NCBI GenBank assembly: GCA_024280835.1
Contig: JAJRPJ010000006.1
Location: 62,001 to 126,000, forward strand
Source: Candidatus Zixiibacteriota bacterium
GTDB lineage: Bacteria; Zixibacteria; MSB-5A5; GN15; JACZUZ01
Direction of reading: 5' to 3'
Length of the DNA: 64,000 bases
The stretch's first letter is position 1. Each line of letters begins with the position of its first letter. A program made the position numbers and the translations under genes. The notes under the pieces are model-generated. The model was not told the DNA's origin. It did no database searches and worked only from the letters and a program-made list of their open reading frames with translations. This document shows positions 6,726 to 29,270 of the stretch, one piece after another.

Positions 6726-7838
6726 ATGAAGTTCAGTATTTCTAGATCCACCCTCGCCGGATATTTGCAGGCGGTTTTACAGGTTGCGCCATCCAAGCCA
6801 GCTTTACCGATTCTTTCCAATATCATGATTGAGGCGCTTGAGCAGAAGCTCAAGATTTCCGCCACCGATTTGGATATTTCAATTACGGCTTCCTTTGATT
6901 GTGATGTTACCCGAAAGGGAGTTGTTGCCGCTCCTGCTCGAATTCTTTATGACATCGTCAAAGAGCTACCCGAGTCTGAAATTAAATTTGACTTGACTGG
7001 CAACAAGCTGGAGATGAAAGCTCCGAACGGTTCCTACAAAATTGCGACAGTTGAGGTTGATGACTATCCAACATTGCCCGCGATTAATCTAAAAAAACAA
7101 ATCAAGTTGGCTGGTTCTGATTTGGTAAGTATGATTTCGCATGTGACATTTGCTTGTTCTAGCGATGAAACACGTCCCGCTCTCAATGGTGTGCTGTGGC
7201 AGACCAAGGGTGACAGGATGGTGATGGTGGCGACTGACGGTCATCGTCTTTCACGTTTTACGGTTTCCAATAAGAAGCTCAAGGGACTCAACGAGGATGT
7301 GATTGTGCCACCTCAGGCGTTGAATATGCTGACCAAATTGATGACCGACACGTCAAAGGAAATTGGAATTATATTTGGTGATAATGATTTGGCTTTCAAT
7401 TTGGGTGATATAGTTTTGACCACTCGGTTGATTGAAGGTCCATACCCGAATTATGATCAGGTGATTCCAAAGCAATGCACCAAAACGATGCGTGTCAACA
7501 AGGAAGAGCTAGCTAGCGCTGTCAGGCGTGTTTCGATACTCTCTAGCGCTTTGACACATCAGGTTCGATTTTCTATCTCTGGAGCGAAGCTAAAGCTCTC
7601 TAGCGCTAATGCTGATATTGGCGGCGAAGCTACGGAGACACTGGCTTGTGACTATCAGGGTGATCCTATCGAATTGGGTTACAAGGCTAGTTATATCAAT
7701 GATATTCTCGGTAAGGTTGATTCTGAAGAGACATTTTTTGAACTCGATAGCCCTATTTCCGCGGCGGTTATTTATGGAACAGACAAGAGCAAGGAAGATT
7801 ATATTTGCTTGATTATGCCGCTGAGATTAGCTGAATAG
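6726..7838 (+). CDS. dnaN: DNA polymerase III beta subunit (sliding clamp)
   Basis: A 370-residue protein of the usual length for the bacterial clamp, which forms a dimeric ring that tethers polymerase III to DNA. The N-terminus MKFSISRSTLAGYLQAVLQV, the middle-domain motif VATDGHRLS, and the C-terminal YICLIMPLRL (family consensus is close to yv.MPmRl) identify it. It follows oriC and precedes recF, the standard order. The spacing to recF is 72 bases, so co-transcription is likely. Confidence 0.98.
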   Translation: MKFSISRSTLAGYLQAVLQVAPSKPALPILSNIMIEALEQKLKISATDLDISITASFDCDVTRKGVVAAPARILYDIVKELPESEIKFDLTGNKLEMKAPNGSYKIATVEVDDYPTLPAINLKKQIKLAGSDLVSMISHVTFACSSDETRPALNGVLWQTKGDRMVMVATDGHRLSRFTVSNKKLKGLNEDVIVPPQALNMLTKLMTDTSKEIGIIFGDNDLAFNLGDIVLTTRLIEGPYPNYDQVIPKQCTKTMRVNKEELASAVRRVSILSSALTHQVRFSISGAKLKLSSANADIGGEATETLACDYQGDPIELGYKASYINDILGKVDSEETFFELDSPISAAVIYGTDKSKEDYICLIMPLRLAE

Positions 7839-15179: not shown

Positions 15180-15515
15180 TCACTCACGGCGGCGCATGAA
15201 CCACCAAAACACAATTGCAAATACCCAAACTGGGACCACTATGGTGGCCACTGAAATTGCATTTTTATCGAGCAGTCCATTTGGTGTTGGAATTAGCCCA
15301 AGGCGAAATTCATCGCGCTTGATGGTTTCGGTGACTTTATCGTCTTCGTAGAAACCTGTTCCCGCTAAAGGATCATCAGGGTCTAGCTTGCGCTCGACTT
15401 GTTCGACGACTTGAAACTTTGTGTATGAATCGCCACCAGTTGCTTGCCAAGTGATTAGCGTCGCGATTGTGAGTATAGTAGCGATTGCGAATACTATTTT
15501 GGGCAGTTTTGTCAT
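15180..15515 (-). CDS. Small two-TM protein of unknown function
   Basis: A 111-residue protein with an N-terminal hydrophobic segment (about 7-25, VFAIATILTIATLITWQA), a polar, acidic middle of about 60 residues (KLDPDDPLAGTGFYEDDKV) and a C-terminal membrane segment (about 88-107, ATIVVPVWVFAIVFWWFM) ending in RRRE. The topology suggests the middle faces the periplasm. No family recognised. It reads toward the terminator at 15036-15064. ATG 15515 is the only sensible start. Confidence 0.7.
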   Translation of the reverse strand: MTKLPKIVFAIATILTIATLITWQATGGDSYTKFQVVEQVERKLDPDDPLAGTGFYEDDKVTETIKRDEFRLGLIPTPNGLLDKNAISVATIVVPVWVFAIVFWWFMRRRE

Positions 15516-15714
15516 GTCGTTAGTTCCAGTTGATACTATCTTTTTGCTGACATTTTGTTCTTACAATTAATCTTACTAATAAAGTTCTACTAATAAACTA
15601 TGTGACTTTGAGCGCCGAGGCAAGGCTACTTCCCATCCTTAATGTTTGGATTGGATGGGGAGTAGTCCTGCTTTGAGCTATTATATTACTCGGCGTATTG
15701 CTATTTCTCTTCTA

Positions 15715-16515
15715 TCAACCGCCACATGGATTGCAAGGGTTGCAAGGGTTACATGGGTTCATGGCTTTCTTACCACCACAAGGGTTACAGGGGTTGCATG
15801 GATTACATGGATTGCCTCCGCCACCAGATTTATCTGAGCCGAAGAAACTAACCGCGATTGTCACTGATTCGCCAACTTTGGCGCCAATGATTTTGCCGAA
15901 CTTCTCTGATGGGACACTGAAGTCTTTCAGGGCTACATCAAAATTGACACGACCAACAAGCAAATTACCAGGGGCTTGCATTTTTGTCATTCCAGATTCC
16001 TTGAGGAAAGTGAAACGCCCTGGGATTTCCATCGACTTTGTTTTTCCGTGCAATGAAAATGAGCCAACAACAGTTGCTTCAAAGGTCATTGAGCCTTTTT
16101 TCTTGCTGACTTCTTTCATATTCTTAAGCTTTTTGATTTCGAAGACGATGTTTGGATGGTTCTTTGCATCGAGCCATTCTGCGCTCTTTAGATGTTTGTC
16201 GCGCATCGGGATACCAGTCTTCAAGCTGGCGACTGGAATCATCAATTTGCCTGAGCCGCCAGCTTTGGGGTTGCAGGGGTTAAACATGATGTAACCAGAA
16301 AGTTCTGTTGAAACTCCGACAATTCTTTCCAGTGGAGCGTCACTGGTGAATGAGGCGGAGTTCTTGGCGCCAGAAATTACAAATTTGTGGCCTTTCATCA
16401 TGCAGGGATTGCAAGGGTTGCATGGATTACCCTTCGCAGATGCGAGGGAGCTTAGCGCCATCGTTGACACTAAGGCCAGCGCCAATGCGGTTGCTAGGGT
16501 GCGTAAATGTCTCAT
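15715..16515 (-). CDS. YceI-like protein with Asn-Pro-Cys repeat tracts
   Basis: A 266-residue exported protein. Residues 1-27 are a signal peptide ([15 protein letters not shown]-type, cleavage near ASA-K). Residues about 43-225 match the YceI lipocalin-like fold: [26 protein letters not shown]-like [12 protein letters not shown], and the C-terminal VTIAVSFFG. Added to this are NPC triplets: three at 30-38, one at 79-81 followed by NPK, four at 235-246 and four at 253-264, ending CGG. All 12 cysteines of the protein are in these triplets. YceI proteins bind isoprenoid lipids in the periplasm; the NPC tracts look like a metal- or thiol-handling addition, but that is inference. At DNA level the tracts are imperfect 9-base repeats. 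A purine-rich AGGAAA lies upstream of ATG 16515. Confidence 0.85.
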
Positions 16516-28820: not shown

Positions 28821-29198
28821 TTATTTGTTGCTTGTTTTCTTCTTTCTCTTACTTGTGGTACTGGAGCTTGTACAACAGGCTTCATTTGGTGAAACAGTGA
28901 CTTTTACGCATGCGCAGGGAAAGCAAACTGAAAGTTGCATACATAGCTCACTAACGCATGCAGGGTTGACTTCATAAAACACTTTCTGTCCTTCTTTCCT
29001 GCGTGTGACAAGTTTTCCAGCGGTTAATGTTTGCAGGTGACGAGTGATTGTAGGTTGGGTCAAGTCGAAGAAATCTACTATCTCACCAACGGTTCGTGCT
29101 TTACCCTCGAGCATCAATAGTATCTTGAGTCGAGTTGGATCTGAAAGAGCTTTGAAAGCCGCTGGCATCTCTTGGGTTGATTGTTTTTTTGTAGTCAT
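28821..29198 (-). CDS. ArsR/SmtB-family regulator with Cys-rich C-terminus
   Basis: A 125-residue winged-helix repressor: FKALSDPTRLKILLMLEG, VGEIVDFFDLTQPTITRHLQTLTAGKLVTRRKEGQKVFYEV are the ArsR hallmark. The C-terminal 45 residues hold seven cysteines (about 81, 86, 92, 95, 97, 108, 109: SELC, CFPCACV, ACC) and end in a Ser/Thr/Lys-rich tail. Such cysteines often form a thiolate site for As(III), Cd(II), Pb(II) or similar ions, but the arrangement is not one of the classical alpha-3 or alpha-5 sites. ATG 29198 is preferred with AGGAAG upstream; an upstream in-frame start at 29270 adds an unlikely segment across the operator. An inverted repeat lies upstream at 29239-29270. No ars or cation pump gene is adjacent. 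Confidence 0.88.
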   Translation of the reverse strand: MTTKKQSTQEMPAAFKALSDPTRLKILLMLEGKARTVGEIVDFFDLTQPTITRHLQTLTAGKLVTRRKEGQKVFYEVNPACVSELCMQLSVCFPCACVKVTVSPNEACCTSSSTTSKRKKKTSNK

Positions 29199-29238
29199 AG
29201 TCCGTGTCTTCCTTTTATCGCCTACTTGGTCGTAATAC

Positions 29239-29270
29239 ATGCAGACATAGGTATATACGCATACCTGCAT
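29239..29270. promoter_or_regulatory. Candidate ArsR-type operator
   Basis: GGTAT (29250-29254) and ATACC (29261-29265) form an inverted repeat with a 6-base centre; ATGCA (29239-29243) and TGCAT (29266-29270) form a second, less symmetric pair around it. The element lies 41-72 bases upstream of the ArsR ATG at 29198, in the divergent region shared with the M14 peptidase gene. Confidence 0.45.

Follow-up and report, generated by a model that had tools for sequence, protein, structure and literature searches.

YceI proteins are widespread, and their chemistry is unsettled. Isoprenoids, ubiquinone-8 for example, are ligands of known YceI lipocalins. BcnA acts with a cytochrome b561 partner to limit the peroxidation of lipids; mutants of BcnA and LcoA, whose genes are paired or fused, accumulate lipid peroxidation (PMC9113575). 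A thiol mechanism resembling that of alpha-1-microglobulin was excluded for BcnA by the authors of that work, because BcnA homologues contain no cysteine (PMC9113575). Repeated Asn-Pro-Cys (NPC) units are found in the Clostridioides difficile exosporium protein CdeC, a cysteine-rich surface-layer protein with a 6-unit NPC repeat, of which fragment 1-100, containing NPC, gives apparent dimers and trimers and whose assembly is affected by the redox state (PMC7677010).

The gene described here lies in a window of 64,000 nucleotides (the whole stretch of DNA analysed) from a Candidatus Zixiibacteriota bacterium and encodes a YceI-type protein with NPC tails, hereafter NPC-YceI. As in BcnA/LcoA and the yceJ-yceI pair of E. 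coli, a secreted YceI barrel is paired genetically with a small membrane protein; the membrane partner of BcnA/LcoA is a cytochrome b561, whereas that of NPC-YceI is an unrelated two-helix protein. BcnA homologues are described as Cys-free (PMC9113575), whereas NPC-YceI has 12 cysteines in its tails and one loop, and only some of its orthologues are Cys-free. The mammalian lipocalin alpha-1-microglobulin likewise combines a lipocalin-like barrel with a reactive cysteine outside the core, an analogy of mechanism only (PMC9113575), as its sequence is unrelated to NPC-YceI and a single loop cysteine stands against repeated tails. CdeC shares the NPC repeat with the tails of NPC-YceI (3 + 4 + 4 units) but belongs to the spore exosporium, lacks a YceI domain and has other Cys-rich motifs; its motifs CCRQGKGK, CNECC and KKNKRR do not occur in the 266 residues of NPC-YceI. 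SoxA/TsdA-type cytochromes c of other bacteria also carry NPC/NPCGGK tails on either side of a small exported domain, which is a haem domain in place of the lipocalin; a two-helix partner was not seen with them. Bacterial metallothioneins and copper bufferins are Cys-rich metal-binding candidates; to our knowledge, neither has domain similarity to NPC-YceI, whose tails, in contrast, consist of NPC only and are fused to a lipocalin.

The NPC-YceI gene and its product

The gene, its parts and its membrane partner are located in the window as follows.

15715-16515, minus strand: NPC-YceI gene, secreted YceI-type lipocalin of 266 aa (ORF list, Pfam PF04264, AlphaFold model, PDB fold matches)
16435-16515, minus strand: signal peptide, residues 1-27 (ending in LSSLASA, followed by KG), SPase I type AxA site, no lipobox (read from the sequence)
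16402-16428, minus strand: N-terminal tail NPCNPCNPC, residues 30-38, 3 units (sequence, sister-species alignment)
15847-16371, minus strand: YceI barrel domain, residues 49-223, its sole Cys being that of the loop NPC (Pfam, model)
16273-16281, minus strand: loop NPC, residues 79-81, reading NPCNPK (alignment; codons identical in the sister species)
15778-15813, minus strand: C-terminal tail block 1, four NPC units followed by GGK, residues 235-246 (sequence; disordered in the model)
15724-15759, minus strand: C-terminal tail block 2, four NPC units followed by GG, residues 253-264 (sequence; disordered in the model)
15180-15515, minus strand: two-helix membrane partner, 111 aa, with invariant WxxTGGDxYTK, DPL, RxGLxPTPxG and DK (alignment)

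The initial annotation had read a periplasmic YceI-like protein with NPC tracts from the sequence, and its description is confirmed, with one refinement that concerns the loop unit. The ORF coordinates are right, on the minus strand; the YceI assignment is supported by a Pfam match to PF04264 (E 2.8e-22, residues 49-223, 80.1 bits against a curated cut-off of 23.7); and all 12 cysteines are preceded by Asn-Pro, three in the N-terminal tail, one in the loop (followed by NPK) and four in each C-terminal block. Judging from the signal peptide with its AxA site, NPC-YceI is exported to the periplasm or outside. The NPCNPC pattern occurs eight times in the 3.3 Mb genome, every time inside this gene, and the reversed control pattern does not occur, indicating that the NPC tracts exceed chance; the other YceI gene of the genome (contig C13) lacks NPC and has a different context. 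In the alignment, the loop NPC falls on the YceI core motif [DN]PxNP, of which it is a form specific to the genus; other members have the motif without the cysteine, and this unit accordingly belongs, by its sequence, to the core motif and not to a tail. His and Met are almost absent from the tails.

An AlphaFold model built with 38 homologues gave pLDDT values of 91-98 across most of the barrel and of about 38-57 in the tails, with the signal-peptide region modelled as a helix (residues 3-21). Its best PDB matches were BcnA (5ixh), E. coli YceI (1y0g), PA0423 (7bwl) and TT1927b (1wub), with a TM-score of up to 0.86 against 5ixh (target length), and the significant fold matches were YceI structures, including BcnB and HP1286. 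The barrel should hold an isoprenoid, a quinone or another lipid, and the low tail pLDDT beside the confident barrel suggests that the tails are probably flexible extensions lying outside the lipid pocket.

NPC tails in orthologues and on other carriers

A search for NPCNPC in 99 relatives matched six other genomes, five of them in a YceI orthologue and one apparently by chance. The profile built from the matched orthologues revealed one YceI clade (profile score above 200 bits) in 13 of 133 Zixiibacteriota genomes. The members with NPC tails come from the window's genome (G000), its sister species (G001), G007, G008, G031, G053 and G086, with a partial sequence (L075) and one from a Planctomycetota genome (G163), which was found through a search for the membrane partner. 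The eight full-length NPC-bearing members, seven from Zixiibacteriota and one from Planctomycetota (L075 being outside the count), all carry units at both ends, 5 to 13 in number, and 73 of their 73 cysteines sit in NPC, which supports the earlier suggestion that the protein may define a family. The tails of G007 have neither CxxC nor CxP. Cys-free orthologues were found in G073, G081, G094, G103, G104, G105 and Bin_270, and the C-terminus of that in G105 reads LNPAGK, resembling a decayed NPCGGK. Because several close orthologues lack any cysteine, the tails count as an addition that varies between lineages. The tail state requires about four changes on the YceI tree (3-5 in bootstraps), and a single ancient origin with later losses is possible. 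The members from G008 (family f3; L031) and G053 (family f4; L032) are 84% identical, a degree of sequence identity that suggests horizontal transfer between the two families.

Comparison of the codons of the two sister species revealed 18 synonymous and no non-synonymous differences over 36 aligned tail codons, against 105 synonymous and 40 non-synonymous in the remaining 229 codons (Fisher p 0.002), with one NPC unit gained or lost; these tail changes would, as a caution, largely conserve an antisense GL[QH] frame as well. The saturated synonymous sites without any amino-acid change indicate that it is the protein sequence of the tails that is conserved. The initial annotation had named missing tracts in homologues and free variation between close relatives as evidence against it, and the outcome is divided: homologues carry the tracts, and no aligned tail residue has changed between the sister species, but several close orthologues are Cys-free and the unit number ranges from 5 to 13 elsewhere. 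This variation, with unit numbers differing between families and tails missing in some orthologues, would also be expected of functionless low-complexity sequence spread by repeat slippage. The conservation just described, the constant presence of both ends together and the codons, which differ from unit to unit and thus do not reflect recent slippage, make such an origin highly improbable. The chance that NPC is an artefact of a collagen-like GLQ/GLH repeat truly encoded on the opposite strand is close to nil. An antisense collagen-like ORF does lie at 15698-16294 of the window, and most NPCNPCNPC matches in viral contigs (L181-L241) fall in very short open frames, as antisense Gly-X-Y would give; however, the sense ORF has a signal peptide and a YceI domain and is free of stops in eight homologues, the antisense frame is broken in most relatives and is not an intact gene there, and other bacteria have such tails fused in frame to cytochrome c. 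The viral matches, probably antisense collagen-like Gly-X-Y, are a trap for pattern searches.

Similar tails are found on unrelated domains. In five genomes of the phylum of G139 (a record titled Deltaproteobacteria), a small cytochrome c of the SoxA/TsdA type has NPC and NPCAAK/NPCGGK tails on both ends. These genes (L158-L162) lie beside multihaem cytochromes or DUF3179 genes: three of the five adjoin a multihaem cytochrome homologous, at 38-40% identity, to the one beside NPC-YceI in G001 (40% over 376 aa, E 6e-92, for a pair compared by BLAST), and a fourth adjoins a thioredoxin-cytochrome fusion. The link to G001 is suggestive only, since the corresponding cytochrome lies 73 kb from the NPC-YceI gene in the window's genome. 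In that phylum, G566 encodes an exported protein consisting almost wholly of NPC units (22) beside a cupredoxin gene (L165:7435-7851 and 7000-7416), and one further NPC-tailed protein, whose gene neighbours that of a thioredoxin-like protein, has an OmpA-like domain by our reading of its sequence. That such tails recur on cytochromes c suggests a general module, of which no description was found in the literature searched: a search for Asn-Pro-Cys tails in exported bacterial proteins gave no paper, and Asn-Pro-Cys alone gave CdeC. It is conceivable, if rather unlikely, that the tails are a portable extracytoplasmic thiol module placed at both ends of unrelated carriers, the YceI lipocalin with its two-helix partner in Zixiibacteriota and Planctomycetota and the SoxA-type cytochrome c beside multihaem cytochromes in another phylum, and forming an unrecognised thiol redox or metal relay in the envelope, with an enzyme of the formylglycine-generating (FGE) type acting on the tail cysteines in some lineages.

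The two-helix partner and the gene neighbourhood

The gene immediately downstream of NPC-YceI in the window encodes a protein with two predicted membrane helices (residues 3-26 and 85-110, in a model of low confidence) and had no Pfam or NCBIfam match in profile searches. A cytochrome b561 was considered as the partner and rejected, as none lies beside the NPC-YceI gene and the two-helix protein has neither a Pfam hit nor an invariant His in its alignment. The partner profile matched 12 of the 133 Zixiibacteriota genomes, all within the 13 that bear this YceI clade (Fisher p 3e-16, uncorrected for kinship); in the remaining one, the YceI gene is cut off by the end of its contig. The partner adjoins the YceI gene in 12 of 12 genomes, with an FGE gene between them in four, and is frame-shifted in the assembly of G031. 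Members of the partner family are located at 15180-15515 (minus strand) of the window and at L061, L062, L063, L064, L100-L104 and L157, and more distant relatives of the partner lie beside YceI genes without NPC in Phycisphaerae. This constant pairing with varying cysteines indicates that the YceI gene and its partner form a stable unit of which the NPC tails are the variable part; as Cys-free close orthologues keep the same partner, the thiols are dispensable for the core function.

The intervening genes of G007, G008, G031 and G053, all NPC-bearing, encode secreted FGE homologues and lie directly downstream of NPC-YceI (L062:6871-8022, L063:2099-3247, L065:6806-7864 and L100:9591-10793). 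They match solved formylglycine-generating enzymes of the S. coelicolor type (E 3e-67); the two active-site cysteines align, and a His-rich insertion is present. Classical sulfatases were rejected as their substrates: none of the sulfatase-family (PF00884) hits in the four genomes has the substrate motif CxPxR, one having CSVTR and four being of apparent LTA-synthase type, which leaves no obvious classical substrate. For the window's lineage, a role of the FGE as general maturase was likewise rejected, because the only PF03781 hit of the window's genome is EgtB, and no FGE of that kind was found there. This EgtB-like gene (contig C1:26395-27135, L112) adjoins an EgtD-like methyltransferase gene, which suggests ergothioneine synthesis and an aerobic life of the organism.

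An ECF sigma factor gene and one for a zinc-finger anti-sigma factor lie upstream of NPC-YceI in G007, G008 and G031, and KatG and a Fur-type regulator are encoded near the G008 locus; the window's own genus has neither the sigma/anti-sigma pair nor the KatG neighbourhood. A multihaem cytochrome adjoins the YceI/partner pair in G001, which may be an accident of rearrangement. As an obligate partner in Zixiibacteriota this cytochrome was rejected, its close orthologues being confined to the window's family and its gene lying far from NPC-YceI in G000. Genes for MerR-regulator, HMA-domain and thioredoxin-like proteins come directly after the module in G053, and a few kb upstream of that in G086 lie genes for an outer-membrane efflux protein and a CusB-type adaptor. 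Overall, the neighbourhood points to envelope redox (sigma/anti-sigma, cytochromes, thioredoxin-like) at least as much as to metals. In five genomes of three families (G001, G081, G094, G103 and G104; L101, L102, L105, L107 and L111), pst-phoU or phoBR genes adjoin the pair, other pairs being near cytochromes or metal genes. Elsewhere in the window, an ArsR-type regulator (28821-29270, minus strand) with a Cys-rich C-terminal tail (CFPCACVKV...EACCTSS) is possibly metal-sensing.

Candidate functions of the NPC tails

As the initial annotation did, we infer a metal or redox chemistry of the tails. NPC-YceI is tentatively read as an envelope antioxidant lipocalin of the BcnA type in a variant that carries thiols, with a probability of roughly 0.38; we rank this reading first, soft-metal binding second and thiol-mediated assembly third, the latter two being serious rivals. 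Two genes would make up an envelope module, with NPC-YceI as its secreted component and the small inner-membrane protein, its loop outside the membrane, as the other. The module would protect the envelope from oxidative damage by lipid peroxides or quinone radicals, as BcnA-LcoA does in Proteobacteria, and the membrane partner may recruit the lipocalin or re-reduce it. This reading draws on the layout shared with the BcnA module, on the redox-type context of some loci (ECF sigma/anti-sigma, KatG with a Fur-type regulator, the multihaem cytochrome beside the G001 pair) and on the recurrence of NPC tails on cytochromes c of the SoxA/TsdA type, most of which have a multihaem cytochrome as neighbour. 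Against it, simple oxidation to disulfides may be the fate of exported thiols, some close Cys-free orthologues have the same partner, that partner is not a cytochrome b561, the sigma/anti-sigma pair and the KatG neighbourhood are missing from the window's genus, and in the window's genome the cytochrome is distant.

The tails might instead be ligands of soft metals: several units together would take up extracytoplasmic Cu(I), Zn, Cd or Hg, and the YceI barrel would act as the carrier. In favour of this, a cysteine stands at every third residue, CNPCG is repeated, and CNPCGGK is reminiscent of the metal knuckle Cys-x-x-Cys-Gly; metal genes follow or precede the module in G053 and G086; the NPC-only protein of G566 lies beside a cupredoxin; and the FGE homologues beside four members retain both active-site cysteines, a pair that binds Cu(I) in known FGEs. 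We hold this function to be somewhat less likely than the antioxidant one; against it, the tails are nearly devoid of His and Met, unit number and spacing vary widely, G007 has no CxxC, and of the eight NPC-YceI loci just two, that of the window not among them, have adjoining metal genes. Tails at both ends, and the same tails on domains as different as cytochrome c and OmpA-like, would suit thiol/disulfide cross-linking for oligomerisation or attachment to surface partners, as proposed for Cys-rich exosporium proteins. CdeC is a precedent for such redox-affected assembly through an NPC-containing fragment, but its multimers form across the whole protein and not via NPC alone (PMC7677010). With CdeC unrelated in domain and compartment, and with odd cysteine numbers (13, 13 and 5) in three of the eight members ill-suited to full pairing, cross-linking appears less likely than the other two functions. 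In members with a neighbouring FGE, the tail cysteines could be its substrates, turned into aldehydes, for which the gene order, the retained active site, the lack of CxPxR in the sulfatase-family proteins and the fit of CNPC to CxPx in G008, G053 and G031 would speak. This is very unlikely: CxPxR is absent from NPC-YceI, the tails reading CNPCN or CNPCG with no Arg after CNPC, G007 lacks even CxP, the window's genome has only EgtB, and FGE adjacency (four of eight NPC-bearing against none of six NPC-free loci, p 0.085) was scored in incomplete genomes.

The NPC-YceI feature is real and conserved, and it belongs to a gene pair for which no description was found in the literature searched. The best-supported proposal for YceI proteins, envelope peroxide detoxification by BcnA, had set a thiol mechanism aside because homologues lack cysteine, whereas the clade described here has up to 13 cysteines in conserved flexible tails, with natural Cys-free orthologues as built-in controls. 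Many thiols, Cys-free orthologues and a new, strictly linked partner together make thiol and metal hypotheses for YceI proteins directly testable.
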